From the NCBI GenBank assembly GCA_947453445.1, contig CANGGP010000021.1, positions 1-48,581 on the forward strand: DNA of 48,581 nt. The letters run 5' to 3'. Position 1 is the stretch's first letter; each line of letters begins with the position of its first letter. The notes beneath the pieces are model-generated. The model saw only the letters and a list, made by a program, of their open reading frames with translations, ran no database searches and had not been told where the DNA came from. The position numbers were made by a program, and so were the translations under genes. The stretch is from Sphingobacteriaceae bacterium. GTDB taxonomy: Bacteria; Bacteroidota; Bacteroidia; B-17B0; Aurantibacillaceae. Positions 3,077-28,003 of this stretch are shown one piece after another.

Positions 3077-5493
3077 ATAATTGTCCGGGTACCATCAATG
3101 ATTCATTGAGCACCATCGAAAACACTCCTGTGTTTGGTGATGCATCGCTGAATGATAATGGCACTAACGGTGGTGTATATACCGGTGGTAGTCCTAGTGG
3201 CGGCGCGGGCAGCTTTAGCATCAACCCTAGTAACGGTCAATATACTTTTACTCCTAACTCGGGCTTTACCGGCATCACTACCGTAACTTATACTTTGTGT
3301 AATGGTAGTCCTTTGGTGTGTTCTACTTCACAAATCACCTTTACTGTATATCCTACTTTATCGGCTGTACCTGATTTAATCATCACCAGTCCGGGTGTTA
3401 ACGTTAGCGGCACTTTAAGCAGCAACGACGCAGGTGTTGTGAGCAATGCCAATTACTCGGTAACCATTATCCAACCAAGTGCAGGGGCAGGTACATTAAG
3501 TATTAATCCTGCCAATGGTCAGTACACTTTTGTTCCGGCCTCAGGTTTCACCGGCACTGCTACTGCTAATTACACCATTTGCAACATCAGTGTCAATCCA
3601 ATTGTATGTAGCTCGGCTTCAATTTCATTATTGGTGGCCAACATACCTGTGGCTGTAAATGATATGACTACCACCATGCAAAATGTGCCTGTGGTTGGTG
3701 ATGCTTCATTAAACGACATGGGCACTCAATTGAGTCAAGGACCTGTTTTCATTGCCACCTTGTTAACTGCCAATGCAGGTACTTTAAATATGGATGCTTC
3801 AACCGGTTCATATACCTTTAATCCTGCAAGCGGCTTTACCGGAACTGCCAGTGCAAATTATACTTTGTGTAATTTGAGTACTGCACCTTGCGCTACCGCA
3901 AATATTGATTTGGTAGTATATCCAAACTTGGTGGCTGTGGCCGATATTATTTACGGACAACCAAACACTGTTGTAAGCGGCACCTTAACCAACAACGATT
4001 TGGGAATTTTAGCCGGCGCAAATTATTCGGTAATTGTAACTGCTTTATCAAACAGTGAAGGAACCATTGTTGTGAATGCTGCCAGCGGTGAATACACCTT
4101 TACTCCGGCTGCTTCATTTAGCGGATCAACTTCAACCACTTATACCATTTGTAATTTAAGTGTTAATCCTATGTATTGCAGCAATACCACCATCCAATTC
4201 TTAATTGGAAAACCGCAAATGGCTGCTACCAAAAATGTGATTGCCCATAAAAAATTAAATGCAAATACTTTCCAAACTGTGTTTGAATTTAACTTGAGCA
4301 ACATCGGCAATGCCATTGCAAACAATGTGCAGTTGGTAGATAATTTAAACAATGCATTCCCTTCACCGATTACTTATACTGTTGCAGGTTTAAATGCGAA
4401 CAACGGTTTAGATGTGAATAATCTTTATAACGGTTCTTCTCTTGTTGCATTGTTATCGGGCACCAATAGTTTAATGCCTGCACAAAACGCAGTGGTAACT
4501 TTGAGTGTAAATTACAATCCTAACGGAAACAGTTTAACCCAATTAAGCAACATGGCGATTGCATCCAGTGCTTATTTGCCTGATCCAAATGGCAATGCCG
4601 TTCACAATTCAATTGATACTACCAATGTTGGCAGCAACAACGATCCGAATGGCAATGGTAATCCAAACGAAAATGGTGAAAACAATCCAACTACTTTCGG
4701 TCAACAAATTGCCATCTCTAAAACTGCTTTACCATCAACTTCGGTTGCCAAGGGTGTTAGTCAAACTGCCTTTATTTTAAACATCGAAAACATTGGTGTT
4801 GTAAAAGCAACCAACATTGAAGTAATTGATAATTTGATGGCTACCTTCCCTTCACCAATTACTTTTACTGTTGTGGATGTGAAGAGTGGCGCACTGTTAA
4901 CCTTAAATTCGGCTTACGATGGCAAGAGCATTGTGAATCTTTTGGCTGCTAACAACGCACTTAACACCGGCGCCAAAGAAAGCATTACTTTAACTGTAAA
5001 CTACAGCATGAATGGCAGCAGCAATAACGGCTTGTTTAACACTGCAACTGCTATCACCAAAGACAACTTGGGTCATCAGTTGAGTATCGACATCAGTCAA
5101 AACGGAAGCAACTGTGATCCAAACGGAAATGGTAACCCGAACGAAAATGGTGAAAACGAAGTGACTTACTTCGCACCGGCCAACGACATCGATTCAGTAG
5201 AGGTTGAATTCAGTATTCCTCAAGGTTTCTCTCCTAACGGTGACGGGGTTAACGATTTGTTTGTGATCCGCGGTATTTCCAAATATCCAAACAACGAATT
5301 AAGCATCTTTAACCGTTGGGGCAATGTGGTTTACAAAATGAAAGGTTACGACAATACCTGGAATGGTAAAGCATCTGAAGGGATACATTATGGCAGTGAC
5401 GATTTGCCTGAAGGTACTTACTTCTTTGTGTTCGACTTGGGTAACGGTAAAATCCACAAAGGATACATTTACTTAAACCGTGCGGTAAAATAA
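1369..5493 (+). CDS. Repetitive T9SS surface adhesin, downstream fragment with gliding-associated (CHU_C) C-terminal domain
   Basis: This continues the adhesin after the one-base frameshift. The first codons (1369-1410) are out-of-frame read-through; genuine homology begins at about 1411. Order of modules: eight more 73-residue Ig-like repeats to about base 3076; four cadherin/VCBS-like modules (about 3090-4215) that alternate two types, one with N-x-P-V-x-G-D-A-S-L-N-D and one with V-S-G-T-L-x-x-N-D; two DUF11-like modules (about 4220-5160), each ending in an Asp/Asn/Gly-rich DPNGNGNPNENGEN stretch that could bind calcium; and a CHU_C domain (about 5214-5490) with FSPNGDGVND and FNRWGNVVY. 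CHU_C is the type B sorting signal of the T9SS. The next gene, 27 bases on, is a PorP/SprF barrel, the known partner of such cargo. Likely job: a very large exported adhesin or gliding-type filament. The ligand is unknown. Confidence 0.9.
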   Translation: MCRVCSNHYCLWCPTYTWLPVSLNAASIAVTPSNNITYTVIGTNSLGCSNSLTLNLAVNANPTISTVASASAICVNSSATLTASGVQNYTWMPGNLSTASVVVNPTVSTTYTIRGTNSVGCESFTNIALVVNANPTLSLSASSNTLCAGSSASLSALGAQNYTWNPSALIGSLVTVSPSITTVYTLVARDANACSANGTLQVVVNANPTLQIVSSQSAICVGANASYTVSGASNYTWNPGALISNSISVSPTANIVYTVNGLSSLGCSDSKTVSLQVNANPSLNVSSSSTAICNGASASLTANGAINYSWTPNAATGSLVSVSPTVNTIYTVSGTNANACSDTKTIALMVNANPTVSSVQSSTAICIGQTATLSASGANNYTWNPGAQTASLVTVNPTINTTYTVLGINASGCTSTKTLNVQVNALPSLTASAASTAICFGGSVSLNAAGAQTYTWNPGVISGSLISVSPTVSTVYTLSATNNNGCSDNATVSLVVNALPNFTLSVPLATVCANTTASLSASGANTYTWNPGNINSANITPTISGNTVFTLQGTSAQGCQASTTVAIYLNNCPGTINDSLSTIENTPVFGDASLNDNGTNGGVYTGGSPSGGAGSFSINPSNGQYTFTPNSGFTGITTVTYTLCNGSPLVCSTSQITFTVYPTLSAVPDLIITSPGVNVSGTLSSNDAGVVSNANYSVTIIQPSAGAGTLSINPANGQYTFVPASGFTGTATANYTICNISVNPIVCSSASISLLVANIPVAVNDMTTTMQNVPVVGDASLNDMGTQLSQGPVFIATLLTANAGTLNMDASTGSYTFNPASGFTGTASANYTLCNLSTAPCATANIDLVVYPNLVAVADIIYGQPNTVVSGTLTNNDLGILAGANYSVIVTALSNSEGTIVVNAASGEYTFTPAASFSGSTSTTYTICNLSVNPMYCSNTTIQFLIGKPQMAATKNVIAHKKLNANTFQTVFEFNLSNIGNAIANNVQLVDNLNNAFPSPITYTVAGLNANNGLDVNNLYNGSSLVALLSGTNSLMPAQNAVVTLSVNYNPNGNSLTQLSNMAIASSAYLPDPNGNAVHNSIDTTNVGSNNDPNGNGNPNENGENNPTTFGQQIAISKTALPSTSVAKGVSQTAFILNIENIGVVKATNIEVIDNLMATFPSPITFTVVDVKSGALLTLNSAYDGKSIVNLLAANNALNTGAKESITLTVNYSMNGSSNNGLFNTATAITKDNLGHQLSIDISQNGSNCDPNGNGNPNENGENEVTYFAPANDIDSVEVEFSIPQGFSPNGDGVNDLFVIRGISKYPNNELSIFNRWGNVVYKMKGYDNTWNGKASEGIHYGSDDLPEGTYFFVFDLGNGKIHKGYIYLNRAVK

Positions 5494-5520
5494 AAATTGA
5501 TCATTGAAAAAAAAGATATT

Positions 5521-6441
5521 ATGAAAACTATAGCATTAAAAATAGCGGTTCTGCTTTTCGCCATCCAAGGCTTAAAGGCACAACAAGAAAGCATGTATAC
5601 CCATTACATGTACAACACCCTTTGGCTCAACCCGGCTTATGCAGGCACCCGTGATGCTTTAACCGTAACAGGCATACACCGCTCACAATGGGTGGGTTTC
5701 GACGGCTCGCCAAATGATCAAACCATTACCATGCACACTCCTTTTTATAACGGCAAAATGGGTGCAGGCATTAGTTTATTAAACGATAAAATTGGACCCA
5801 CCAAAAGTACCATCGTGGCTTTTGATTATGCTTACCACATCCGTTTAGATAAAAAATCAAAATTAAGTTTTGGTGTAAAGGCATTGGTTAATTTTTATAC
5901 CAACAGCATCAATACACTGAGATTGGATAACCAAAACGACAATTCTTTCGCCGACAATGGTCAACGCGTATTACCCAATGTTGGTGCAGGGGTTTACTAT
6001 TCACGCGAGCGTTTTTTTGCGGGATTTTCTACTCCAAAATTGATGGAAAATAAATTGGTGACCAATTCAATCGGCGTATTATCTAAGGAGCAACGTCACT
6101 TTTATTTCATCATGGGAACTGTTTTAAAATTAAATGCCCGCGTGAAATTTAAACCTACCATGTTTATTCGTGCCACCGAAGCAGCGCCAATTGAAAGTGA
6201 TTTAACTGCCAATTTTATTTTTTACGATAAATTCACTGCAGGCGCCATGTACCGCACCGGCGATGCTTTTGGCACCCTTTTGGCTTATCAAGTAAATGAT
6301 AATTTTTCAATTGGTTATTCATTCGACTGGTCGATGGCCAACACCACCGGCAAATACAACAGCGGTAGTCACGAAATTATGTTGCGTTACGATTTGGTAT
6401 CCTTTTCGAAAGCAAAAATTAAATCACCACGTTACTTCTAA
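5521..6441 (+). CDS. PorP/SprF family outer-membrane barrel (T9SS partner)
   Basis: A protein of 306 residues with a signal peptide (MKTIALKIAVLLFAIQGLKA, cleaved before QQ) and the family's hallmark just after it: N-P-A-Y-A-G-T-R-D, then H-R-S-Q-W-V-G-F-D-G-S-P. The rest is alternating beta strands of an outer-membrane barrel. Known PorP/SprF proteins help secrete or anchor CHU_C-tailed (type B) cargo such as SprB. The gene lies 27 bases after the adhesin and 11 bases before the PorE-like gene on the same strand, so the three almost certainly form one operon. The ATG at 5521 is preferred over a TTG at 5497 because it places the signal peptide at the N-terminus. It is probably dedicated to the upstream adhesin; a housekeeping PorP may lie elsewhere. 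Confidence 0.92.
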   Translation: MKTIALKIAVLLFAIQGLKAQQESMYTHYMYNTLWLNPAYAGTRDALTVTGIHRSQWVGFDGSPNDQTITMHTPFYNGKMGAGISLLNDKIGPTKSTIVAFDYAYHIRLDKKSKLSFGVKALVNFYTNSINTLRLDNQNDNSFADNGQRVLPNVGAGVYYSRERFFAGFSTPKLMENKLVTNSIGVLSKEQRHFYFIMGTVLKLNARVKFKPTMFIRATEAAPIESDLTANFIFYDKFTAGAMYRTGDAFGTLLAYQVNDNFSIGYSFDWSMANTTGKYNSGSHEIMLRYDLVSFSKAKIKSPRYF

Positions 6442-6452
6442 AAAACATTGTT

Positions 6453-8684
6453 ATGAAAAAGTTAATCATTATCATCGTTAGTTTCTTCAGCGTGTATAGT
6501 TACGCGCAAGACACTCAAAACAATGTTGAACAACCTAAAAAGGTTCAAAAACCAAACAAGGTTGAAAAACATTATAACCAATACAGCTACTCAAAAGTGA
6601 TTGAAAGAGCAGAGGGAAAAAAATTGGTTTCCATTACCGTTCAACGCGAATTGGCTGAAAGTTACAAGCGTTTGGGACAATACCAAAAATGCGAAATGGC
6701 TTATGCTAGTTTAGCGAACATGCCCGAAAAAACAGCACCCGATGTTTTGGCGTACGCACAAATTTTAAGAATGAACGGTAAATACGGCGAATCTGATGAA
6801 CAAATGACCTTGTATGGCCAAATGAATGCAAACGATTCGCGTGTAATTGAATTGAATAAAAATAAAAATTACCTGCAATCGCTCTTAACCGATAACGGAA
6901 ATTATAAAATTAAAAACATCGACTTAAATAGCGCAGAACAAGATTTTGGTCCGGCTTATTATAAAAACCAATTGGTGTACACTTCGTCAAGAGCAGAAAT
7001 AGCGGCATCTATGCGTAAATGGAATGGTAATAATTTATCTTTTTTAGATGTTTACATAGCCGACATTGATTCGGTTAGTGCTGAATTAAGCCATAGCAAA
7101 CGATTAAACATGATTAACCGGAAATACCACGAAGGACCAATTTCTTATAGTGAAGATGGCAATGTGGTTTTTTACACCAGAAATAATTATAACGAAAACA
7201 GTAGCGATGGCGTAACAAAACTGGAGTTATATGAGTCTACCTTAAAAGATGGCGTGTGGACCGAAGCCAAACCTTTTCAGTATAACAACAAGGAGTATTC
7301 TGTAGGTCAACCTGCTTTAAGCGCCGACGGTCACATTTTATATTTCTCTTCTGATATGCCCGGTGGTAAAGGCGGTACTGATATTTACCGTTGCGAGCGA
7401 TTGGGCGATGGATCTTGGACAACACCACAAAATCTTGGTGATACCATCAATACCGAAGGCAACGAAATGTTTCCCTTTTTACACGACAATGATATGTTGT
7501 TTTTCTCTTCCGACGGACATCCGGGTCTTGGTGGATTGGATGTTTTTGTAACCCCCATGAGTGAGCACATTACTCAAAAGGTGGTAAACTTAGGTGTTCC
7601 TGTAAACAGCTCTAAAGATGATTTTTCATTCATCATGAATAAAGAACAAAGCAAGGGTTATTTTGCCTCGAACCGCGAAGGCGGAAAAGGTGATGATGAT
7701 ATTTACAGTGTTGTTATTCATAAAGCCATTCATTTCGGTATTCGCATCAAAGGCGTAGCGCTTGATAAAGATAGTTTGCCTCTAGGCGGTACCATTGTGA
7801 ATTTATACGCGAACGAAAATTCAAGCGAACCATTGCTAAGCACCTTTACCAAAAAGAATGGCAGTTTTAAATTTGATATGGTTGAGTCTAGCAATTTACG
7901 CATCACCGGCACCAAAGTAGGATACGAAGGGGATAAAAAGAATATTTTATCTGATTCAAGCAATCATTTTGTAACATTGGTATTGACAAAAAATTTAGGT
8001 TATTCATTATTTGCACACATCACCGATAAAAAAACCAAAGAAGTAATTACCGGAGTACATGTAAAAATTCAAGAAGTTAAATCCGGAAAGGTGATGGAAT
8101 TTGTAACCGATAGCATTGGTGAATTCAGAAAGAAATTAGAAGACAATCACTTGGGTGATTCATTAAAATATAACATTGAAATTAAGAAAGAAGGATATTT
8201 GACCAAACACCTTGATTTTCAAAAAACATTGGCAAACGAGTCTGAAATTAAACTGCATGAGGGTTTAGACATTTCGCTTTCAAAAGTGGAAGTTGGTGTA
8301 GATATTGGCGCTGTAATTAATATTAACCCAATTTATTTTGATGTGGATAAATCAATTATTCGCAAAGATGCTGCCCTTGAATTGGACAAAATTGTAGAGA
8401 TCATGCTCGAAAACAAAGGCATGGTGGTTGAATTGGGCTCGCATACCGATTGCCGCGCACCAGCAGCCTATAATTTGAGTTTATCTGATCGTCGTGCCAA
8501 AGCCAGTGCAGCTTACATCATTAATAAGGGTATTAGCAAAGACCGTATATACGGCAAGGGTTATGGTGAAACCAAACTTAAAAATGGTTGCGCATGCGAA
8601 GGCATCGTAAAATCAGTTTGCAGCGAAGAAGAGCACCAACAAAATCGCCGAACCGAGTTTATCATCGTAAAATTGAAAGACTAA
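6453..8684 (+). CDS. PorE-like OmpA-family protein with PD40 propeller and regulatory domains
   Basis: 743 residues. Order: signal peptide (1-19, ending SYAQ); a helical TPR-like part (about 45-150); a PD40/WD40-like propeller (about 150-425) with repeated blades such as ALSADGHILYFSSDMPGGKGG and a second FFSSDGHPG blade; two carboxypeptidase-regulatory-like beta domains (about 428-520 and 525-605); and an OmpA C-terminal domain (about 615-743) with YFDVDKS and the peptidoglycan-binding-like SLSDRRAKAS. This order (TPR, PD40, CRD, OmpA) matches PorE of the T9SS, which binds peptidoglycan and tethers the translocon periphery. Unlike PorE, which is a lipoprotein, no lipobox cysteine is visible. 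Third gene of the adhesin operon, 11 bases after the barrel and followed by a terminator. Inferred role: anchor the barrel or adhesin complex to the cell wall. Confidence 0.88.
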   Translation: MKKLIIIIVSFFSVYSYAQDTQNNVEQPKKVQKPNKVEKHYNQYSYSKVIERAEGKKLVSITVQRELAESYKRLGQYQKCEMAYASLANMPEKTAPDVLAYAQILRMNGKYGESDEQMTLYGQMNANDSRVIELNKNKNYLQSLLTDNGNYKIKNIDLNSAEQDFGPAYYKNQLVYTSSRAEIAASMRKWNGNNLSFLDVYIADIDSVSAELSHSKRLNMINRKYHEGPISYSEDGNVVFYTRNNYNENSSDGVTKLELYESTLKDGVWTEAKPFQYNNKEYSVGQPALSADGHILYFSSDMPGGKGGTDIYRCERLGDGSWTTPQNLGDTINTEGNEMFPFLHDNDMLFFSSDGHPGLGGLDVFVTPMSEHITQKVVNLGVPVNSSKDDFSFIMNKEQSKGYFASNREGGKGDDDIYSVVIHKAIHFGIRIKGVALDKDSLPLGGTIVNLYANENSSEPLLSTFTKKNGSFKFDMVESSNLRITGTKVGYEGDKKNILSDSSNHFVTLVLTKNLGYSLFAHITDKKTKEVITGVHVKIQEVKSGKVMEFVTDSIGEFRKKLEDNHLGDSLKYNIEIKKEGYLTKHLDFQKTLANESEIKLHEGLDISLSKVEVGVDIGAVININPIYFDVDKSIIRKDAALELDKIVEIMLENKGMVVELGSHTDCRAPAAYNLSLSDRRAKASAAYIINKGISKDRIYGKGYGETKLKNGCACEGIVKSVCSEEEHQQNRRTEFIIVKLKD

Positions 8685-8700
8685 TTAAACAAATTTATTT

Positions 8701-8735
8701 AAAAGCACTAAGCCCCTTGCTTGGTGCTTTTTTTT
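8701..8735 (+). terminator. Rho-independent terminator after the adhesin operon
   Basis: Stem AAGCACTAAG / CTTGGTGCTT (one G-U pair) with a short CCCCTTG-type loop, followed by eight T. It sits 17 bases after the PorE-like stop and ends the adhesin, barrel and PorE-like operon. Confidence 0.85.
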
Positions 8736-8903
8736 GCCCTACATGTTCATGTAGTTCTGAGAAGCTTATTTTTTTGCAAATTCATCATGCAGAGCAAACC
8801 ACCATGTTGTTCTATTGTTTATGCAGAGATTCACAACATATTATTTTTTTATTATCTTGTAGTTAATTCGCATGGCAAGAATCAAATCTGTAAATCCAAT
8901 TGT

Positions 8904-10925
8904 ATGCAAATAACATTAAAAGACATTAAAAAAAAATTCACTTTTTTAGCCTTGTGCTGCGCATTGCAGTTGGCGCAGGCTTTTGGACAAAACATCGCAA
9001 AAATTGATTCCTTACAAAAAGTATTAAAAAAGCAATTGGCTGATTTTAGTACATCATCGCACGATTTAAAAGACACCTTACCGTCAAAAACCTATTATGC
9101 GCTTGCAATGGAGTTTATGGATTTTGAACCTCAAAAATCTAAAAACTATTTTTTGGAAGGCTTGAAAATTAGTGAGCAATTGCATTTTGTTAGGGGCTTG
9201 GCAAGTTTTAACCACGAGTTAGGGGTGTATTCAATTAACAGTGGTGAATATAATGAAGCCTTAAAATATTTAAATGAATCAATAAAGCATTATGAAGCCA
9301 AAGGTGATAAATTAAATTCTGCCATTAATTACGGGAATATTGGCATCGTTTATGATTTAAAAGGGAATCAACCTGAAGCATTAAAAATTCAGCTCAAGGC
9401 CCTCAAGTTATTTAAGGAATTGAAAAAAGATGGCGGTATTGCCTTTTGTTTAAATAACATTGGCATCATTTATGAAATTCAAAAAAAATACGACAAAGCA
9501 AAGAGCTATTATTTTGAAGCCTTGGAAATTCGAAAAAAACAAAATGACAAGAAAGGTTTGGGTGATGTGTATTGCAACCTAGGTAATTTATTTAATTGCT
9601 TAAAACAAAATGATGAGGCTTTAAAATACCTCCAGCTTGGTCTCGAAGCAAAACGCGCCGTTGAAGATCCTTATGGCATTTCGGATGCATTGCACAACAT
9701 GGCGAATATATACGTCACAAAAGGTGAATTAAACAAAGCCTTGAAAATGGAAGCGGAAGCCGTTGAAATCAAAGAAAAATTAGGAAACAATGATTTACTT
9801 GAATCAAGTTATTCTAATATTGGCTTCATCTATATTAAAAAGCACCAATTGGACATCGCTAAAAAATATCTTCAAAAAGCGCAGCACATTGCCGAAGAAG
9901 TGCCAAGCTACGAATTAAAACAAGATTGTTACTTTAATTTATCGCTGCTCGATAGTGCCATGGGCAATTACCCGGCTGCGCTAAAGCATTTTAAAATGCA
10001 TGTAAAATACCGCGATAGTTTAATCAATGAGGAAAACACCGAAAAAATTCTTCAGCAGCAAATGCAAAACGATTACGATTTAAAGGAAGCCAAATTAATT
10101 GCCGAACAAGATAAAAAAGACAAAATTAATCAAGCTGAAATGTCGGCCCACAAAACCGAAAGAATACTCTACATCATTCTTGCCCTGATATTGTTTTTTG
10201 CGGTATTTGTTTTATGGAGTCGCCTAAATTTAGCACGTAAAACCAGGCTGCTATTAGAAGAAAAAAACAAACAAATTCAATTGGCGCAAGAATGGGCTGA
10301 AGAAGAACGAACCAGGGCTGAAGTGATGCAAATGCGAAATAAAATCGCCAAAGATTTGCACGACGATATTGGTTCATCCCTCAGCAGCATTGCCATTTAT
10401 GGGGAGTTGGCACAAAAAATCATTGCCGAAAAAGTACCTGAAGCAAAAAAGGTTTTGAGCAATTTGGAAGAAATTGCCCTCGAAGCCATGGAGAACATGA
10501 ACGACATCGTTTGGGCCATTAATCCGGTGAACGAAAAACTCGAAGACATTATGTCGCGCTTAAGCCTTTTGGCAGAACGATTACATGAAAGTTCAAACAT
10601 TGAAATTCATTTTGAAGTGCCTGCCGATGTAAAACAATTAAAACTCAGCATGCAACAACGTAAAAATATTTACCTTATTTTTAAAGAGGCACTGAATAAT
10701 ATCGCCAAATATGCAGACGCAAAAAATTGTTATCTGCGTTTTAAAAATTTGAATGGTAAATTATTAATCAGCATCAAAGACGACGGCAAAGGATTTGATG
10801 AACTGCCCGAAAGTTTTGGCGGCAATGGTTTAATGAACATGCGGGCCAGGGTGCAGGAAATAAACGGACAAATTGAAATTATTTCATCACTCGGAAAAGG
10901 AACAGAAATTAAATTAGAATTTTAA
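8904..10925 (+). CDS. TPR-containing sensor histidine kinase (NarL-partner type)
   Basis: 673 residues from the ATG at 8904, which puts a signal peptide first (LALCCALQLAQAFGQ). A longer reading from 8721 would begin inside the preceding terminator and is rejected. Order: periplasmic TPR repeats (about 60-370; recurrent N-I-G-I-x-Y and A-L-K-Y-L motifs), coiled coil (370-420), one membrane helix (about 421-443, ILYIILALILFFAVFVLW), HisKA_3 dimerisation region with the phosphoacceptor in KDLHDDIGSS (His486), and an HATPase_c domain (about 570-673; N-box FKEALNNIAKY, G1 DDGKGF, G2 GGNGLMN). HisKA_3 kinases pair with LuxR/NarL regulators, and such a regulator starts on the base right after this stop codon. 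The signal sensed is unknown. Control of the T9SS operon upstream is possible but is an inference from proximity only. Confidence 0.93.
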   Translation: MQITLKDIKKKFTFLALCCALQLAQAFGQNIAKIDSLQKVLKKQLADFSTSSHDLKDTLPSKTYYALAMEFMDFEPQKSKNYFLEGLKISEQLHFVRGLASFNHELGVYSINSGEYNEALKYLNESIKHYEAKGDKLNSAINYGNIGIVYDLKGNQPEALKIQLKALKLFKELKKDGGIAFCLNNIGIIYEIQKKYDKAKSYYFEALEIRKKQNDKKGLGDVYCNLGNLFNCLKQNDEALKYLQLGLEAKRAVEDPYGISDALHNMANIYVTKGELNKALKMEAEAVEIKEKLGNNDLLESSYSNIGFIYIKKHQLDIAKKYLQKAQHIAEEVPSYELKQDCYFNLSLLDSAMGNYPAALKHFKMHVKYRDSLINEENTEKILQQQMQNDYDLKEAKLIAEQDKKDKINQAEMSAHKTERILYIILALILFFAVFVLWSRLNLARKTRLLLEEKNKQIQLAQEWAEEERTRAEVMQMRNKIAKDLHDDIGSSLSSIAIYGELAQKIIAEKVPEAKKVLSNLEEIALEAMENMNDIVWAINPVNEKLEDIMSRLSLLAERLHESSNIEIHFEVPADVKQLKLSMQQRKNIYLIFKEALNNIAKYADAKNCYLRFKNLNGKLLISIKDDGKGFDELPESFGGNGLMNMRARVQEINGQIEIISSLGKGTEIKLEF

Positions 10926-11579
10926 ATGACATCAAACCCAAGTAAAATTCGCGTGTCGCTTTATGAAGATAATCACGCATTGCGCGAAAGTTTAAGCAGT
11001 TTATTCGAGTTGTTTCCTGAGTTCGAGCTCACAGGTGCTTATGCCAACCCTTTACGCATTATTGAAAACATTAAAGAAAGAAAACCCGATGTAATTGTAA
11101 TGGATATAGATATGCCCGGCATGAACGGCATCGAAGCGGTTACCTTGGTACACAAACATTTTCCGGAGATCAAAATTCTCATGCAAACCGTTTTTGATGA
11201 TGAAGAAAAAATATTCAATTCCATCTGCGCCGGGGCAGTGGGTTATATCTTAAAAAAAACCCGTCCACTCGATATTGTTGAAGCCATTAAAGATGCCAAT
11301 GTTGGCGGCTCGCCCATGTCGCAAGCCATTGCCACTAAAGTGCTCAAAATGTTTCGACAATATTCGCCGCCTAAAGCCGATGAAAAAATTAATTTAAGCG
11401 ATCGCGAAAAAGAAGTGTTGCTGGCACTTACCCAAGGCAAAAGTTATAAAATGATCGCCGAATCTTGTGCCATTAGCCTTGATACGGTACGTTTTCATAT
11501 CAAAAACATCTACGATAAATTACACGTGCATTCAATGACCGAGGCTGTGTCAAAGGCCTTGCGCGAAAAGCTCATTTAA
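10926..11579 (+). CDS. NarL/LuxR-family response regulator
   Basis: 217 residues. The receiver domain (about 8-125) has the acidic pair YEDN near its start, the phosphoacceptor Asp60 in VIVMDIDMPGMNG, and the conserved lysine in GYILKK. The C-terminal LuxR helix-turn-helix (about 153-215) reads LSDREKEVLLALTQGKSYK, then SLDTVRFHIKNIYDKL. The start codon abuts the stop of the TPR kinase with no gap, so the pair is translationally coupled and should form one two-component system. Target genes are unknown. Confidence 0.95.
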   Translation: MTSNPSKIRVSLYEDNHALRESLSSLFELFPEFELTGAYANPLRIIENIKERKPDVIVMDIDMPGMNGIEAVTLVHKHFPEIKILMQTVFDDEEKIFNSICAGAVGYILKKTRPLDIVEAIKDANVGGSPMSQAIATKVLKMFRQYSPPKADEKINLSDREKEVLLALTQGKSYKMIAESCAISLDTVRFHIKNIYDKLHVHSMTEAVSKALREKLI

Positions 11580-20352: not shown

Positions 20353-20831
20353 GGTTAGTTTTTAATGGTTAAACAATGTGCTTCGTGATTTATAAATGTA
20401 AAAAATTTAAGATACAAATGAAAGATTTGAAAAAAAATAGCGCATTGAATGAGAATAATTGTTCCGAAATGAAACAAAAATACAGATCTCGCTGACGCAT
20501 GAGAATAAGCAATCGAAATGATTTAGGGGTGACAGTTAATTTTTTCACACCAATAAATATTAATGTGGCTAGAAATAAAGCAAGCCTCTGTTATAGTTTT
20601 ACATTTAGCAGCCAAAGCCAAACAAGCAAAACACAATATGATGCCTTTAAACTGCTAGCCAAAGAATGGGGCGGGGCTGACCGAAGGCGCCCAAATTTTA
20701 GAAATCTGTCGATTTAGCGAGGTCTTTTTTAAATCCACCAATCAAACATGGCTTTCACTCATTCATAGATTGGCTTTGCTAAGTCGCAAGTTTTGTATTT
20801 ATAAAATACTTAGTTTAGTAAAAAAATAGCC
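20353..20831. other. 479-bp spacer between divergent genes
   Basis: No supported gene; a 72-codon frame at 20499 has unconvincing composition. Around 20655-20692 is a short GC-rich patch ending GGCGCCC, which resembles the end of the GC-rich elements described at 42918 and 44804 and may be a remnant. Otherwise AT-rich, with promoter sequence for the LytTR regulator at its right end. Confidence 0.4.
20791..20818 (+). promoter_or_regulatory. Possible Bacteroidota-type promoter for the LytTR regulator
   Basis: TTTTG (20791-20795) and TAGTTTAG (20811-20818, 7 of 8 match to TAnnTTTG) lie 13 bases before the start codon. The 15-base spacing is shorter than usual, so support is weak. Confidence 0.3.
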
Positions 20832-21569
20832 ATGCAAAAATACAGAGCAGTTATTATCGACGACGAAGAAGACAGCAGAAGTAATACGCGCAACATGATT
20901 GAGAAGTATTGCTCTGAACTTGAAATTGTCGGCGAAGCAGAAAACGGTCCTGATGGAAAAATAAAAATTCAGGAATTAAAACCACACGTTGTTTTTTTAG
21001 ACATTAACATGCCCGGTATGAATGGCTTTCAAATGCTGGAAGGTATTTATAACCGCGATTTTTGTGTGATATTTTTAACGGCTTACAGTGAGCATGGCAT
21101 TACTGCTGTAAAAGCGGGGGCCACCGATTATTTGTTAAAACCCCTCATGTTAAGCGAACTGCAAAGCGCCATAAAAAAAGTAGTACAACATTACGAAAGC
21201 AAATCAGCCGCACCAAAAACAGAAGATAAAAACTTGGTATTAATCAACCATAGCAAAGGTTTTACCTTGGTTGATTTTAAAGACATTGTTTGGTTAGAAG
21301 CCAGCGATAATTACACCAATTTGTACCTCAATGGTCAGAAGAAAATTATTGCCAGCAAAACATTAAAAGAATTTGAAACCATTTTACCTGAAGTAGATTT
21401 TTTCAGGGTTCACCGTTCCGCCCTCATCAATATTCATTACGTAAAAGAATACAGCAACCACGATGGTGGTGAAGTTATATTAAGCGACGGCACCCGCGTG
21501 CAAGTGAGCAAAGCCCGCATCCAAGAATTCGGTGATTTCATTAAAACCAAATCGGTTACACCAAAGTGA
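20832..21569 (+). CDS. LytTR-family response regulator
   Basis: 245 residues. Receiver domain (about 4-122) with the acidic cluster IIDDEED, phosphoacceptor Asp57 in VVFLDINMPGMNG, and the conserved Thr/Lys in FLTAYSEH and YLLKPL. A LytTR DNA-binding domain follows (about 140-240), with IVWLEASDNYTNLYL, SKTLKEFE and FFRVHRSALINI, all typical. LytTR regulators pair with LytS-type kinases carrying a His_kinase domain; exactly such a kinase lies 1.09 kb downstream on the same strand, separated by the 207-bp repeat array. The pair probably forms one system that was pulled apart by repeat expansion. Likely targets are its neighbours, including the CHU_C and barrel genes, but this is inference. Confidence 0.95.
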   Translation: MQKYRAVIIDDEEDSRSNTRNMIEKYCSELEIVGEAENGPDGKIKIQELKPHVVFLDINMPGMNGFQMLEGIYNRDFCVIFLTAYSEHGITAVKAGATDYLLKPLMLSELQSAIKKVVQHYESKSAAPKTEDKNLVLINHSKGFTLVDFKDIVWLEASDNYTNLYLNGQKKIIASKTLKEFETILPEVDFFRVHRSALINIHYVKEYSNHDGGEVILSDGTRVQVSKARIQEFGDFIKTKSVTPK

Positions 21570-21610
21570 TTGTGCGTTTTATAGAATGCAGATGACGCAG
21601 TTCATTGTTC

Positions 21611-22328
21611 ACGTTTTACGGAACGCTGATAAGGCAGATTTAATAGATGAACACAGATAAAAAATATGCGATAATCATATTTTTCAGTGTCATCTGCGCT
21701 CCATCACTATCTACTGCCATTACAAAAATCAATTACTTCCAATCTACTTAGTGTCCTTTGTGCCACAGTGGTAAAAAGGAGGTAAGCGTCAAGAAGGCAA
21801 GAGTTAAGACTTAGTTCACGTTTTATAGAACGCTGATAAGGCAGATTTAAAAGATGAACACAGATAAATAATCTGCGATAATCATATTTTTCAGAGTCAT
21901 CTGCGTTCAATCACTATCTATTGCAATTACAAAAATCAATTACTTCCAATCCCCTAAGTGTCCTTTGTGCCTCAGTGGTAAAAAGGAGGTAAGCGTCAAG
22001 ACGGCAAGAGTTAAGACTTAGTTCACGTTTTACGGAACGCTGATAAGGCAGATTTAATAGATGAACACAGATAAAAAATATGCGATAATCATATTTTTCA
22101 GTGTCATCCGCGTTCAATCACTATCTATTGCCCATTACAAAAATCAATTACTTCCAATCTACTTAGTGTCCTTTGTGCCTCAGTGGTAAAAAGGAGGTAA
22201 GCTTCAAGACGGCAAGAGTTAAGACTTAGTTCACGTTTTATTGAACGCTGATAAGGCAGATTTAATAGATGAACACAGATGAATAATCTGCGATAATCAT
22301 ATTTTTCAGTGTCATCTGCGTTCAATCA
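21611..22328. repeat. Tandem array of a 207-bp mosaic repeat (3 full copies plus a partial)
   Basis: Copies start with ACGTTTTA at 21611, 21818, 22025 and 22233 (steps 207, 207, 208) and are very similar to one another; the fourth stops after its foldback. Each unit holds, in order: a foldback bounded by GAACGC and GCGTTC-like ends; a spacer; a CTTAGTGTCCTTTGTGCC-type motif ending in GTGGTAAAAA; and a CAAGACGGCAAGAGTTAAGAC-type motif. Minus-strand frames of about 67 codons in each unit look like by-products. The array separates a LytTR regulator from its probable kinase. Confidence 0.95.
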
Positions 22329-22658
22329 CCCACCGCTAAATGTTACATCAAGTAGTGCCAATTCCCCCTTAATGTTCTTCGTGCCTATCCCGAAACAAGT
22401 TCGGGACAAGAGTGGTTCAAAAAAGAGACTAGAGTCAAGACAATAGAAGGTGCAAACAATGCAAGAATATTGTTAGTGTGTAGTAGGCAATGCATAAGTC
22501 ATATCGACAACAAGTCTCAACAAAGCCCACCATGTGTTCTATGTGTTTTAATAATAGAGCATTTCTTAAAAAAAACCGCATCAACGCTACTATTTTCCCG
22601 CCCTCTTTTTGTACATTTACAATACTTGTTGCTTTAAGCAATAAGCATTTTCAAGTCT
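22329..22658. other. 330-bp spacer before the propeller kinase
   Basis: No gene seen. It begins with decayed repeat modules continuing the array: a GTTCTTCGTGCC motif, then a TCCCGAA / TTCGGGA palindrome (22388-22406), then a GAGTCAAGACAATAGAAGG motif. The right part is AT-rich and contains TTTTTG (about 22605) upstream of the kinase start, which could belong to its promoter. Confidence 0.45.
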
Positions 22659-25574
22659 ATGCATCATATGCGTCATTTTTTTCTGCTTATCATTTTTTTC
22701 TTAGGTCTTATTGCTAAAGGACAAAGCCCTACGTTTAATTTTCAAAAACTTGGCAGCGAAGACGGATTAAACAATGCCAATATTTTTAACATCGACCAGC
22801 ATCCAAATGGCATGATGTATTTTACCACGCAAAATGGTATTTATTATTACGACGGCTATTTTTTTAATAAACTCGAAATCGATAGTCTTAAAAGCAATGC
22901 CTTGTTAGGCGCCACCATCAAAAACGCCGAAGAGCTTTACTTGTCGATTGGGGGAGAAGGAATTGCCAAATACCATTTCGGAAACAAAAATTACAAACCC
23001 ATGAATGCCCTGCGCATTCAAGATAACAATGCCGACGATTTTATCATCGATAACGATTATGCATACCTCTTAACTTGGAGTATTAAATTGTTGATGGTGG
23101 ATTTAAAAAACAATCGCCTCATTCAAGATGAAATAAAACAGAAAGACAATAGCAATTTGGCTTATTGTGTTTATAAATGTAAGGACGGAAAAGTATTGGT
23201 AGGTCGCCGCGACGGTTTATACGAAGTTCGGGCCGGTCGTCAGGTAAAACTCAGTGTACTCAACAACACTGCTGTGCATGCCATCACACAAAACCAAGAA
23301 GGTAAACTCATTATTGGCAGCAACAACAAATTATATGTGTTGAATAATTTTCAAATCGAAAAAGAAATTGTTCCCAATTACCTTGGTAAAGGCAATGCCT
23401 TTCAAATGGGCGGCGAAAAAAGCATCGATAAAGTCATCGCCGATGTATACGGCCGAATATGGTTCACCTCTTTCCCAAATGAAAATTTATACCTCTACGA
23501 AAACAACCAAGTTTACGATGTGTTTGAGGCCTTAGACATTACGCCCACACTCATTAATTGTTTGTTCAAAGATAAATCGGAAAACCTGTGGATTGGCACA
23601 TTCAACGATGGCGTTTATTATTTGCAAAATCCTTTTTTCTCATGCATGAACTTTAATTTTAACAACAAAAATTTAAACGTTAACCAAGTGTACATGCAGC
23701 AAAACCTAATTGTTGCAGCCACCAGCAATGGTTTGTTCGGACTAAACATTAAAACCAACGAAACAAAAATTCTGTCGAAGCCTGACGAAATATTTACCGA
23801 GGCCATCAATAATATTTTGGCCTTGAACCACAACATTTATTATACCAAGCGCAGCGAATTCGACATGAAATCGGTAGCCTTGCGCGATTCGAATAGAGTG
23901 TACGTATTTAAACCGCTTATTGCCAAACAAGTGTATGCCTATAACCACGAACAAAATATTCTCGCCGATTGGAACGCCAATATTTTGCTTTGCGATGCTT
24001 TTAGCAACAAGGTGCTTGATACCTTAATTACATTTAATGATTACCGCATTAGCGTAAATGCTTTTTTAAAACAAGGCGACCAACTTTACATTGGTACCAA
24101 CAAGGGTTTGTTTCAATACGATTTTAAACTTAAATCCTCACGCCACATCATTCGGCCTGAATTAAATTATAACATCAACGATATTGTCGACATCGGCAAA
24201 AACATTTACGTGGCCCATGAGGCGGGTATTAGCGAAGTAAATAATGCCAAGTTAATTCAAGAATGCGGTAAATTTCGTTTAAACAGTGTCAAAAAAATTA
24301 AAGTGTACAACGATTTAATATGGTTGGCAACACTCGATGGTATTTTGGTTTGCAATGCGCAATTTGATGTTGTAAAAACGTTTAATAAATCAACAGGCTT
24401 ACCTTCTAATTCAATCAACGACATTACCTTTTCGGGTGATATGCTTTGTTTATCCACCGCCAGAGGCATCGCTTACAGTTCGGTGAAAAACGTTTTAAAA
24501 TACAGTTCTAAATTAGATCCGGTAACCATTCGCGAAATTTCGTTTAAAGGCGAAAGCATTAAAGCCGATAAAAATGTGTATCATTTTTCAAACGAAATGG
24601 AATCGGTAAACATTTCATTTGTAAGTGCGTTTTTTAATAAACCCAACAAACAATTTTTTAAGTGGCGCGATAATGGAGAGGCATGGACCTATATTGGCAA
24701 TCCGGCATTCGATTTAAGTTTAAGCGGCGGTACCCATCAACTCGAAATTTGTGCCTCCAACGACAATATCAATTGGAGCGAAGCCACCGTGATTAACATT
24801 GTAAAAGAAGAAAAATTAAGCGAGCGTCAATTGTGGTATTGGTTCCTTACTTTGTTAAGCAGTTTCATAATTATTCTAATTAGTTTTATTTTAATTCGTC
24901 GCGTGAAATTAAAAGCCAAGCGCCGCTTGCAAGATGAACAACAAGTAAACTTACTCAAACACCAGGCCATGAACGCACTTTTGAGTCCGCATTTTATTTT
25001 TAATTCACTTACTTCCATTCAAAATTACATCAACACCAACAACGGTTTAAGGGCGAGTGAGTATTTGGCCAAGTTTTCGCGATTAATCCGCATGATTATT
25101 GAAAAGGCGGCCTTAAGCGAAATTAGTTTGCACGACGAGATTACGCGACTGACTTATTATTTAGAATTGGAAAAAGAACGCTTCAAAAATAAATTCGATT
25201 ATTCAATCAATTTAGATGAGAACATTAGTACCCACCAGGTCATGATTCCAAATATGATCATTCAACCGTATGTTGAAAACAGCATCCTACATGGCATCTT
25301 GCCAAAAAATGAACATGGGCATCTAAACATCAACTTTAAAAGTATACACGCAAAAAAACTTCAAATTGTTATCGAAGACAATGGCATTGGATTAATCAAG
25401 GCCCGCGAATTGGCAAAGGCCGGACATAAATCAATTGGCACCAACACCATTCAAAATATTTTGGAGGTGAATTCAAAATTAACGGGCAAAAAACAATATG
25501 TCACCATGGTCGATAAATCTACCTTGGATGATACGCAAAATGGCACCATCATTACCATCGAAATTGAATTGTAA
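22659..25574 (+). CDS. Two-component-propeller sensor kinase of the LytS type
   Basis: 971 residues; the start is ATG 22659 or 22668. A signal peptide (FFLLIIFFLGLIAKGQ) precedes a periplasmic beta-propeller region (about 25-620) with Reg_prop-type blades (NLWIGTFNDGVYYL, YIGTNKGLFQYD, IWLATLDGILVC). A Y_Y_Y-like Ig domain follows (about 640-715), one membrane helix (about 727-750), then a His_kinase domain with the phosphoacceptor in LLSPHFIFNSL (His778), and an HATPase_c domain (IIQPYVENSILHG, EDNGIGL). This is the partner type for LytTR regulators such as the one at 20832. Its last 35 bases overlap the following CHU_C gene, which couples sensing and cargo genes in one transcript. The ligand is unknown; related hybrid propeller sensors in Bacteroidota often bind glycans. 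Confidence 0.93.
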   Translation: MHHMRHFFLLIIFFLGLIAKGQSPTFNFQKLGSEDGLNNANIFNIDQHPNGMMYFTTQNGIYYYDGYFFNKLEIDSLKSNALLGATIKNAEELYLSIGGEGIAKYHFGNKNYKPMNALRIQDNNADDFIIDNDYAYLLTWSIKLLMVDLKNNRLIQDEIKQKDNSNLAYCVYKCKDGKVLVGRRDGLYEVRAGRQVKLSVLNNTAVHAITQNQEGKLIIGSNNKLYVLNNFQIEKEIVPNYLGKGNAFQMGGEKSIDKVIADVYGRIWFTSFPNENLYLYENNQVYDVFEALDITPTLINCLFKDKSENLWIGTFNDGVYYLQNPFFSCMNFNFNNKNLNVNQVYMQQNLIVAATSNGLFGLNIKTNETKILSKPDEIFTEAINNILALNHNIYYTKRSEFDMKSVALRDSNRVYVFKPLIAKQVYAYNHEQNILADWNANILLCDAFSNKVLDTLITFNDYRISVNAFLKQGDQLYIGTNKGLFQYDFKLKSSRHIIRPELNYNINDIVDIGKNIYVAHEAGISEVNNAKLIQECGKFRLNSVKKIKVYNDLIWLATLDGILVCNAQFDVVKTFNKSTGLPSNSINDITFSGDMLCLSTARGIAYSSVKNVLKYSSKLDPVTIREISFKGESIKADKNVYHFSNEMESVNISFVSAFFNKPNKQFFKWRDNGEAWTYIGNPAFDLSLSGGTHQLEICASNDNINWSEATVINIVKEEKLSERQLWYWFLTLLSSFIIILISFILIRRVKLKAKRRLQDEQQVNLLKHQAMNALLSPHFIFNSLTSIQNYINTNNGLRASEYLAKFSRLIRMIIEKAALSEISLHDEITRLTYYLELEKERFKNKFDYSINLDENISTHQVMIPNMIIQPYVENSILHGILPKNEHGHLNINFKSIHAKKLQIVIEDNGIGLIKARELAKAGHKSIGTNTIQNILEVNSKLTGKKQYVTMVDKSTLDDTQNGTIITIEIEL

Positions 25575-26568
25575 AAAACACATATTCATCACCTTGCTTT
25601 GGCTTGGTTTTTTGCAACAAATTGTGGCACAAAACAACCGTTTGCTGCCCGATACCTTGGTGTTTTGCGAAGGCGATAGCGCTTACATTGAATTGAAGCA
25701 GGCGCCCGAAACGAATTATTCCATCACCTGGTCAACACCCTACAGCATTATCACCAACATCAAAAAAATAAAAGCCCTACGCCAAGGTAAATACATGGTG
25801 AAGGTAAGTTACCCGCGTTTTAAAATGCCGATGCTCGATAGTACTTATGTGAAATTATTTTCAAAACAAAAATCTTTGGTGAAAGATACCGTGCTTTGTC
25901 GTGGTCGCTTTTTGTGGTTGGAAGAAAACAGACATGGTGTTCGCAATTTATGGAATACCGGCGAAATAACGCCACGCATCAAAGTGCTTAATCCGGGTAA
26001 GTATTATGTGAACTCTAATTATGGCTCCTGCAGTGTAACCGATACATTCAAGGTAAAATTGTCGCCGAGCTTAGAATTGGCCTTGCCCAGCGAAACAGTT
26101 TTTTGTAATAACACCGTCAATAAAATGATTCAGTTAAACGCTTCAAACGAACTCGATTTTGTTTGGAACAATGGTTTAAAAGGCAATAACATCAATGTGT
26201 TTAAAGAGGGTATGTATTGGGTGAAGGCATCTTATTTAAACTGCGGCAGTCAAAGCGACACCATTCATGTAAAGTTTAAGGCCTGCGATTGTGAGATTTT
26301 AATTCCCAATAGTTTTACGCCCAATGACGATTTTAAAAACGATTATTTTTTTCCTGTGTTAAGTTGCGAGTATTCATATTATACCATTTTAATCACCGAC
26401 CGTTGGGGCAATACCGTGTTTTCATCAAACAACGTGAATGCCAAATGGGATGGTAAATACAAAGGGAATCTTTGTCCTGAAGACATATACATTTACAAAA
26501 TTGAAAGCACTGAAAAGGGCAGCGATAAACATTTAAGCCGCAGTGGCCATATCGCTTTATTTAGATAA
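25540..26568 (+). CDS. CHU_C (type B T9SS) surface protein coupled to the propeller kinase
   Basis: 342 residues from ATG 25540. Other in-frame starts are ATG 25498, ATG 25528 and TTG 25564; all leave a signal peptide (HIFITLLWLGFLQQIVAQ). The start lies inside the kinase gene, which stops at 25574. The mature protein has two or three short Ig/PKD-like beta modules (about 30-245) with paired cysteines (LVFCEGDSAYIEL, TVLCRGRFLWLEE, TVFCNNTVNK), then a CHU_C domain (about 250-342: IPNSFTPNDDFKNDYF, ITDRWGNTVF, CPEDIYIYKI). CHU_C marks type B T9SS export. The next gene starts one base after this stop and encodes a probable outer-membrane barrel. A small, single-tail cargo with its own sensor and barrel is unusual and suggests a dedicated surface system. 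Confidence 0.88.
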   Translation: MAPSLPSKLNCKKHIFITLLWLGFLQQIVAQNNRLLPDTLVFCEGDSAYIELKQAPETNYSITWSTPYSIITNIKKIKALRQGKYMVKVSYPRFKMPMLDSTYVKLFSKQKSLVKDTVLCRGRFLWLEENRHGVRNLWNTGEITPRIKVLNPGKYYVNSNYGSCSVTDTFKVKLSPSLELALPSETVFCNNTVNKMIQLNASNELDFVWNNGLKGNNINVFKEGMYWVKASYLNCGSQSDTIHVKFKACDCEILIPNSFTPNDDFKNDYFFPVLSCEYSYYTILITDRWGNTVFSSNNVNAKWDGKYKGNLCPEDIYIYKIESTEKGSDKHLSRSGHIALFR

Positions 26569-26569
26569 A

Positions 26570-28003
26570 ATGAAAAAAATTAAAGCCGTCTTTTTTCTAT
26601 TGATACTTGTAATGTCAATGCCAAATATTGCACAGGAGCAAATGGGGATGCGGCAAAGTAATTTTTTAAGCAGTTCAAGTATTTTTTTAAATCCCTCTTC
26701 TTCTGCCGATGCACATGTGTACATGCAATTAAATTTGGCTTCGGCAGGTGCTTTTGCATACACCAACGGAGCTTATATTCCATCTTTTAGTGTGTGGCGC
26801 ATGAAACGCGCCAATGGTGAAGTGCAATACCCAAAAGCTTCTACCGTTAAGGTGAGTAAATTTGTTTATGCCAATGCCTTTGCCGAAGGTCCTGCTTTTG
26901 TGATCAGTAAACGTTTGTATGGTGCCGGGTTTTTTGTGAGGGCCCGCTCAATTCTTGATATCCGCGGTATTCCTTATCCTCTGGCCAATATGCTGTTGCA
27001 GCAAAATCCTTATGCTAATCCGCCTTCAACATACAACATCAACAAACGCAATATCAAAGGCGCCAATTTATCTTGGCTCGAATACGGAGGTAATTTTTCA
27101 TACATCATTCGTAAACAACAAAAAGATTTAATCAGCATTGGCGGCAATCTTAAATACATTACCGGCATCAACATCTTTTATTTTAACATCGCCCACATGA
27201 AGGGTTTTTACAACGATACTGTGGTGAGTGTTGATGAAGTAAATGCAAAATTACGCATGAACAGCCCGGCCTTTAACAGTGGCAAGGGCTTGGGACTGGA
27301 TTTGGGCATCACCTATAAAAAAATGTTGAAGAACATTGAAACCTATTATCCCAATTCAGAACAATCGAATTGTACTTACATCGATTACAAATATAAGCTT
27401 GCATTGAGTTTGCGCGATGCGGGTTATATTCGTTTTAAAGGCAGTACCATCAACGCCAATTTTAATGCCTCGGGTTATTACCGCATAGATACCACACGCA
27501 GTATCACCGAAGCCGCTATTACAAATAGTTTAAACGGCACATTATACAGCGGCAACATTACGGCATCATTGCCAACAAATATTTGTGCCCAAGCCGATTA
27601 TAATTTTGAAAATGGTTTTTTTGCCTCTGCACTCATCGTCAAAAATATTTTACCCAATCAGGTTACCGGTGTGGCGGGCAGCAATATTTGGGCAATTTGC
27701 GGAAGGTTTGAACGTAAAAACTTTGAACTCGCATTACCGATAACATTTCAAAAATTTATTTACCCGCAGTTGGGCATGGCTGTTCGTTACCGCTCATTTG
27801 TGTTGGGTTTCGACAATGTGTTTCCTTTGTTGTTTATGAAAAATACCTATGGCCTGGGAATCTATACAAAATTGGCCATCAGTTTATTTAAAAATCCGGC
27901 ATGCCGCAAACGCAGTCGTATTGCCGATTGTCCGCCTTCCATTTTGGAGAAGGACCACAATTTTGTGAAGAAGGTGAAGCGTGTTTTTAAAAGGAAAAAA
28001 TAA
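26570..28003 (+). CDS. Probable outer-membrane barrel partner of the CHU_C protein (DUF5723-like)
   Basis: 477 residues with a signal peptide (MKKIKAVFFLLILVMSMPNIAQ). A short N-terminal motif (SSSIFLNPSSSADAHVYMQLNL) recalls the N-P-A motif of PorP/SprF and of the DUF5723 family, after which come many alternating strands with glycine and aromatic ends (GLGLDLGITYKK, FFASALIVKNILP, GMAVRYRSFVLGFDNVF). The C-terminal 35 residues are basic with two cysteines (NPACRKRSRIADC, ending KRVFKRKK), unusual for a barrel end and possibly periplasmic. The start is one base after the CHU_C stop, so the two are translationally coupled. It resembles DUF5723 more than PorP, and I make that assignment with moderate confidence. 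Inferred role: secretion or anchoring of the coupled cargo. Confidence 0.75.
   Translation: MKKIKAVFFLLILVMSMPNIAQEQMGMRQSNFLSSSSIFLNPSSSADAHVYMQLNLASAGAFAYTNGAYIPSFSVWRMKRANGEVQYPKASTVKVSKFVYANAFAEGPAFVISKRLYGAGFFVRARSILDIRGIPYPLANMLLQQNPYANPPSTYNINKRNIKGANLSWLEYGGNFSYIIRKQQKDLISIGGNLKYITGINIFYFNIAHMKGFYNDTVVSVDEVNAKLRMNSPAFNSGKGLGLDLGITYKKMLKNIETYYPNSEQSNCTYIDYKYKLALSLRDAGYIRFKGSTINANFNASGYYRIDTTRSITEAAITNSLNGTLYSGNITASLPTNICAQADYNFENGFFASALIVKNILPNQVTGVAGSNIWAICGRFERKNFELALPITFQKFIYPQLGMAVRYRSFVLGFDNVFPLLFMKNTYGLGIYTKLAISLFKNPACRKRSRIADCPPSILEKDHNFVKKVKRVFKRKK

Follow-up and report, generated by a model that had tools for sequence, protein, structure and literature searches.

In one uncultured group of Bacteroidota, a LytTR response regulator, a membrane sensor histidine kinase and a small protein with a type B (CHU_C) sorting domain of the type IX secretion system (T9SS) form a constant gene unit; an outer-membrane barrel of the DUF5723 family joins it as an accessory, optional gene in one part of one genus. 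We describe the unit from a contig of a Sphingobacteriaceae bacterium (GTDB family Aurantibacillaceae; assembly GCA_947453445.1, contig CANGGP010000021.1), called the window here over its whole length of 48,581 nucleotides. As to function, here and throughout, we infer: the CHU_C protein may be a dedicated partner of the kinase, and most likely its input, a reading that we prefer but hold tentatively. The initial annotation had coupled kinase, CHU_C protein and barrel in one three-gene unit; the synteny of the first two is conserved among relatives, but the barrel lies outside the constant part, and the unit had thus been drawn one gene too wide.

The family was represented by 87 genomes, one per species, and the order by the same 87. 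An orthologue of the kinase is present in 69 of them (E<=1e-90) and one of the CHU_C protein, hereafter the cargo, in 71 (E<=1e-45). Every one of the 69 kinase-bearing genomes also has the cargo, which follows directly downstream on the same strand in 66, the edges of the two matches lying -2 to 130 bases apart: the adjacency is conserved, the exact overlap seen in the window is not. Among the exceptions, the kinase match of G072 reaches the first base of its contig, and the cargo of G012 is partial (model positions 112-330), probably at a contig end too. The pair is held across six genera, and is kept even in G007, whose kinase has only 31% identity. The G007 cargo (locus L040, 9972-10943) shows 25% identity and a CHU_C score of 26.7 bits for a cut-off of 27, and still sits between kinase and barrel. 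At the thresholds used, four genera (g2, g4, g6 and g9) possess neither kinase nor cargo. In a class-wide search of 395 genomes with 5 candidates scored in each, the weakest cargo match within the family reaches 4.0e-121 (G007), with G063 giving none, and the best outside it 2.9e-60 with partial coverage; within this sample the cargo is family-restricted. Its profile also matches GhpA of Aureispira (9flp_A, E 1.2e-69), a match that we read as no more than a sign of how widespread such modules are.

The genes were labelled by Pfam and NCBIfam profile scores (Table 1). The cargo exceeds the cut-offs of both type B models (TIGR04131, 59.5 bits for a cut-off of 35; CHU_C, 54.2 for 27), and its predicted structure has a predicted local distance difference test score (pLDDT) of 81.4 and a predicted template modelling score (pTM) of 0.43. 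A His_kinase gene and a LytTR regulator encoded together in the window make up a LytS/LytTR two-component system. The kinase, with a signal peptide and one transmembrane segment in the sequence read by eye, stays at 44.9 bits against the PorZ equivalog cut-off of 260 in NCBIfam, a score that probably reflects a shared propeller. For the barrel, DUF5723 (PF18990) scores 83.8 bits, with a Pfam gathering threshold of 26.8; PorP/SprF (PF11751) gives no match at E<=1, and the position is absent from the 12 PF11751 matches of the genome, so the earlier assignment to DUF5723 rather than PorP/SprF holds.

The junctions described earlier were recovered as well. The cargo gene starts inside the end of the kinase gene, with a 35-base overlap if its start is ATG 25540; an alternative TTG at 25564, matching the place where several relatives' open reading frames (ORFs) begin, would shorten the overlap to 11 bases. 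The barrel ATG (26570) stands one base past the cargo stop (26568), and its product does end in a basic tail with two cysteines, C445 and C454 counted from that ATG. The regulator fits the kinase as had been suggested, though its place just upstream needs qualifying: 1,089 bases separate its stop from the kinase ATG.

Table 1 Features of the window discussed in the text
Feature	Position	Strand	Basis or remark
Conserved block upstream of regulator, about TCACTCA..TCA - CTAAGTC - TTAG.TTAG	20755..20824	+	alignment
LytTR response regulator	20832..21569	+	Response_reg E 4.7e-22, LytTR E 8.9e-22
Tandem repeat between regulator and kinase, period 207, 3.5 copies, 93% matches	21607..22329	.	outside conserved cassette
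Membrane sensor histidine kinase, Reg_prop propeller region and LytS-type His_kinase	22659..25574	+	Pfam
Small secreted protein, type B (CHU_C) sorting domain	25540..26568	+	CHU_C E 1.6e-14, TIGR04131 E 2.6e-16
Short-form DUF5723 outer-membrane barrel, basic two-cysteine C-tail, accessory gene	26570..28003	+	DUF5723 E 2.6e-23
CHU_C protein, 1374 aa	1369-5493		second run, same strand
PorP/SprF	5497-6441		second run, same strand
PD40+OmpA PorE-like protein	6453-8684		second run, same strand
TPR histidine kinase	8721-10925		second run, same strand
LuxR-type regulator	10926-11579		second run, same strand

Neighbours of the cargo were counted over 63 distinct loci. A LytTR regulator on the same strand and within 5.5 kb upstream of the cargo is found in 41 of these. 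Where relatives' loci show both genes (22 cases), the gap between the regulator and kinase ORFs is 23-353 bases, compared with 1,089 in the window, where the tandem repeat fills most of it; an exact pattern made from the 207-base unit had no match in the 293 loci searched. The block preceding the regulator keeps 16 invariant columns over all 15 genus members aligned, and 22 in a 13-member choice leaving out the less alike L054 and L057. The pattern TTT[GA]C[TA]AAGTC occurs once in the window and nowhere in L190-L199. This conservation suggests a candidate promoter or operator common to the cassette. LytTR consensus half-sites, sought with a simple expression in 21 regions upstream of the regulator, gave at most one match per strand and genome, and we claim no site; promoter and terminator scans remained at shuffled level.

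So strict a pairing between a single kinase and a single T9SS protein would be most readily accounted for by a part of that protein in the signalling. On its way to the surface by the T9SS, the CHU_C protein should cross the periplasm, the expected location of the kinase propeller, and through its amount or state could report to the kinase on the cell surface or on secretion as such. The regulator would then act on its own operon and on further genes. In part of the genus, the DUF5723 barrel may have been added, or kept, directly downstream, probably as a helper capable of holding a surface protein. Least certain is the step in which its basic tail with two cysteines may be bound to the GldK track, like that of SprF. 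We also count in favour of this reading that, in loci devoid of the barrel, the sorting domain of the cargo is more conserved than the body (mean identity 0.666 and 0.469).

Several observations weigh against it. A surface protein controlled by a neighbouring regulator would give the same synteny, the periplasm-facing propeller is predicted from sequence read by eye, and high sorting-domain conservation, measured in this cargo family alone, may be usual. Kinase and cargo lie on separate contigs in G059. Two genomes have a cargo and no kinase match: G042, where the cargo frame contains four stop codons, and G045, whose contig starts about 0.3 kb before the cargo. The regulator is missing from 22 of the 63 loci, a count that mixes contig ends with true absences such as L053. 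The tail-tethering step is weakened by the fused long DUF5723 forms, which carry cysteine pairs too. Finally, in Porphyromonas gingivalis no direct interaction between PorA and PorY was detected (PMC7712824).

Nearly as likely as the input reading, though still short of an even chance, is ordinary regulation: the two-component system would control a co-transcribed surface protein to which it is not physically coupled, and the barrel would be a passenger. Surface-protein genes commonly adjoin regulators, and the conserved upstream block fits autoregulation of the operon. What speaks for a closer tie is that one cargo is kept beside one kinase in six genera, a retention tighter than a variable surface protein would lead one to expect.

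The barrel follows a different pattern. It stands directly downstream of the cargo in 11 of the 63 loci, with -44 to 112 bases between the ORFs, in genomes that all belong to the window's genus (G000, G003, G004, G007, G017, G018, G023, G030, G037, G038 and G041). The other 52 have no adjoining barrel despite at least 1.6 kb of downstream sequence each. A short barrel of close kind (E of 1e-97 or lower) occurs in 12 of 40 genomes of the genus; G020 has it beside DUF4199-rho genes, with the cassette elsewhere (L037 and L057, respectively), and in three genomes of genus g10 a more distant barrel accompanies an OMP_b-brl_2 gene. In other families of the class, we looked at 39 barrel loci, hand-picked among the stronger matches for spread over families: none has an adjacent CHU_C gene, three have one within about 5 kb (L151, L159 and L188), and for L161, L164 and L179 no more than about 0.5 kb of upstream sequence is available on the contig. 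Synteny therefore rules out the barrel as a constant part of the unit.

On a cargo tree of 59 rows, built by a quick method with 4 of the 63 ORFs left out as shorter than 240 residues (including L034, where the barrel is present), the barrel label needs 4 changes, where shuffles need 9.4, and all 10 barrel-plus rows fall within a single starred set of 13. The linkage of barrel and cargo may thus go back to a single origin with later losses or moves, a history made uncertain by the very long L040 branch. A second short barrel, lacking a CHU_C neighbour, is encoded in G037 (L035 2577-3959, contig C283), the same genome also having a barrel beside its cargo. Long frames with a DUF5723 barrel occur in many family genomes; in the window's own genome (G000), one such frame on contig C59 (L050 4648-7014) is a DUF5723-TSP3-OmpA fusion.

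That the barrel gene would model as a beta-barrel was correctly anticipated: the predicted fold is FadL/PorV-like, with pLDDT 79.1 and pTM 0.75. Superposition on FadL (1t16_A) gives Z 21.8 and a root-mean-square deviation (rmsd) of 6.4 over 322 residues, and on the T9SS translocon chain 6h3i_F, which we take to be PorV, Z 20.5 and rmsd 4.5 over 253; TodX and TbuX are also among the best structural matches. A 14-strand architecture, as in PorP/SprF carriers, is putative for this model, whose fold is also that of transporters. The barrel has a predicted fold in common with FadL, PorV and BamG, but a sequence match is absent, its profile matching no PDB chain at E<=1. Such a fold, as modelled, would allow a carrier role and equally a transporter role.

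The tail was compared over 56 distinct barrels of the short form, with fewer than 560 residues and a profile E below 1e-55. At least two cysteines follow the last strand in 49 of them, namely 16/16 within the family and 33/40 in other families; six have a single one and one has none. With 7% of the residues, the tail accounts for 104 of the 243 cysteines; its composition is 30% lysine and arginine against 6.6% aspartate and glutamate. The column of C445, right after the last strand and the usual start of the tail, is a cysteine in 48/56, and a Cys-Pro motif is present in 32/56 tails. Shuffled cysteine positions reached a mean of 2.1 and a maximum of 8 out of 56 barrels, kinship of the rows not being allowed for. 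A third cysteine of the window's barrel, C268 (27371-27373), lies in a loop and is conserved in 52/56.

In Flavobacterium johnsoniae, disulfides are reported to link the tail cysteines of SprF and PorG to a cysteine of GldK (PMC12635249). The same features of an outer-membrane barrel with C-terminal tail cysteines are found here, in a genome that has GldK and a GldJ-like gene. Its GldK has a cysteine at residue 385 aligned with the PorK cysteine in GCFLGNFKP, a putative counterpart of Cys343. In SprF and in PorG of F. johnsoniae, however, these cysteines are arranged as Cys-X-Cys, whereas 8-35 residues separate the first from the last in the short DUF5723 barrels, where tethering is putative. 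By analogy, the tail recalls the track-linking tail of SprF, which we regard as a lead and not a test. Twin cysteines as proof of track tethering were rejected, 15 of 16 long DUF5723 forms also having such a pair, and co-occurrence with GldK was uninformative, GldK being present in 370 of the 395 class genomes. The conserved tail of the short barrels gives a specific, inexpensive way to ask whether tethering to the track extends beyond SprF and PorG.

Of the genome's 12 PorP/SprF proteins, two, on contigs C20 and C70, end in a similar two-cysteine tail. The first, with a basic tail (L191 5305-8038), lies directly upstream of the GldJ-like gene, which scores 373.8 bits for a GldJ cut-off of 458.2, and the second adjoins a CHU_C protein of 1716 residues. 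In four cases where an OmpA-domain gene comes after the PorP/SprF gene, the tail has none or one cysteine; neighbours of the other eight were scanned in part. Proteins of DUF6089, presumably the PorG family, are also encoded: one on the minus strand of contig C3 (L283 1396-2322) has one cysteine in its C-terminal tail, and those on C49 and C104 have none in the last 45 residues.

For the barrel, a role outside type IX secretion is possible but doubtful: it would be a FadL-type channel for hydrophobic compounds, with the tail cysteines forming an internal disulfide or left over from TSP3 repeats. FadL, TodX and TbuX as structural neighbours point that way, as do the barrels without CHU_C neighbours in other families and the long DUF5723-OmpA forms, whose pairs (two or more cysteines among the 40 residues past the approximate barrel end; 15 of 16 forms) are placed inside acidic TSP3-like repeats. 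The tails of the short forms, however, are basic, and their frequent C445-column cysteine and Cys-Pro motif resemble the two PorP/SprF tails mentioned above.

Less probable, and on the whole unlikely, is that the barrel serves as dedicated carrier and anchor of the CHU_C protein, with kinase, cargo and barrel working as one regulated surface system. Direct adjacency in 11 genomes and the FadL/PorV-like fold are in its favour, and so is precedent: 9 of 12 type B cargos of F. johnsoniae are genetically linked to PorP/SprF carriers, and orphan type B cargos there share a carrier in trans (PMC12618676). For cognate type B pairs, the same source gives iPTM values higher than 0.8. Because of such sharing, a missing barrel neighbour is not decisive, and the many cargo loci devoid of a barrel, together with the other-family barrels devoid of a CHU_C gene, speak against a dedicated carrier without settling the matter.

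The sorting domain was compared after leaving out the four short ORFs and the long-branched L040, and in all groups it is far better conserved than the body. Its mean identity, followed by that of the body, is 0.724 and 0.451 among barrel-plus cargos (36 pairs) and 0.661 and 0.404 between the groups. The domain is somewhat more conserved in barrel-plus than in barrel-less cargos, but the value between the groups is set against 0.666 within the latter. At a matched body identity of 0.30-0.45, it is 0.701 for barrel-plus, 0.619 for barrel-less and 0.650 between. A single column splits the two groups, and imperfectly, with E in 8/9 barrel-plus and D in 40/49 barrel-less cargos. The identity table of the two groups thus contains no carrier switch tied to the barrel, and the barrel is therefore unlikely to be an obligate carrier of the cargo; the 12 PorP/SprF proteins of the genome could serve instead.

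An export checkpoint appears improbable: in it, unexported CHU_C protein would bind the kinase in the periplasm, and the kinase would read the performance of the T9SS, much as FlgM plays a like checkpoint role for the flagellum. The cargo must pass the compartment where the sensor should lie, and no part of it is more conserved than the sorting domain, whether or not the barrel is there; translocon and carrier alone could account for this conservation, however. Feedback through PorA has been proposed for P. gingivalis (PMC7712824). Least probable of all is a combined reading: the CHU_C protein would be a secretion-coupled ligand of its own kinase, and the two-cysteine barrel tail, where present, would tie the exported protein to GldK as the track moves, giving the kinase a readout of secretion or of motor activity. 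Were it true, SprF and PorG would be joined by the short DUF5723 barrels as another, third class of track-linked proteins in the outer membrane.

Coming back to the cargo as input of the kinase, the nearest known case is PorA, a small T9SS protein of P. gingivalis with a C-terminal domain (CTD), which acts upstream of PorXY (PMC7712824). The PorA–PorXY–SigP system (PMC7712824, PMC8050853) likewise places such a protein upstream of a two-component system. PorA has a FimH-like domain and a CTD that binds PorV, with homologues reported only in Porphyromonas; here the CTD is of type B. In addition, porX and porY are far apart, whereas the genes here are neighbours and the kinase has a propeller. 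We know of no LytTR domain in PorX. By analogy, the locus would parallel the PorA/PorXY proposal, but with unrelated components encoded side by side. A link between two-component signalling and a T9SS protein, here with a barrel as an optional addition, is a variant on a known theme. The PorA study leaves two questions open, the activator of PorY and the route by which a surface protein might signal to a kinase of the inner membrane (PMC7712824). Neighbouring in 66 of 69 genomes, the kinase and the T9SS protein offer a genetically simple pair for testing surface-to-kinase signalling.

As in SprB-SprF, Fjoh_3952-Fjoh_3951 and PG1035-PorP, 11 genomes here have a gene for an outer-membrane barrel right after a CHU_C/TIGR04131 cargo gene, but unlike in the type B/PorP-SprF pairs the barrel is DUF5723, not PF11751, and the linkage is confined to one part of a genus. 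The DUF5723-TSP3-OmpA paralogue in the same genome shares the barrel family but measures about 800 residues with TSP3 repeats and an OmpA domain; no linkage of such fusions to the cassette was seen in the two loci with neighbours listed (L050 and L051). In a literature search that mostly excludes subscription journals, no paper found names DUF5723, none joins a type B sorting domain with a histidine kinase, and those returned for two-component systems, LytTR and type IX secretion together were off topic by title.

The window contains a second same-strand gene run (1369-11579) linking a type B cargo to a two-component system, listed in the lower part of Table 1.

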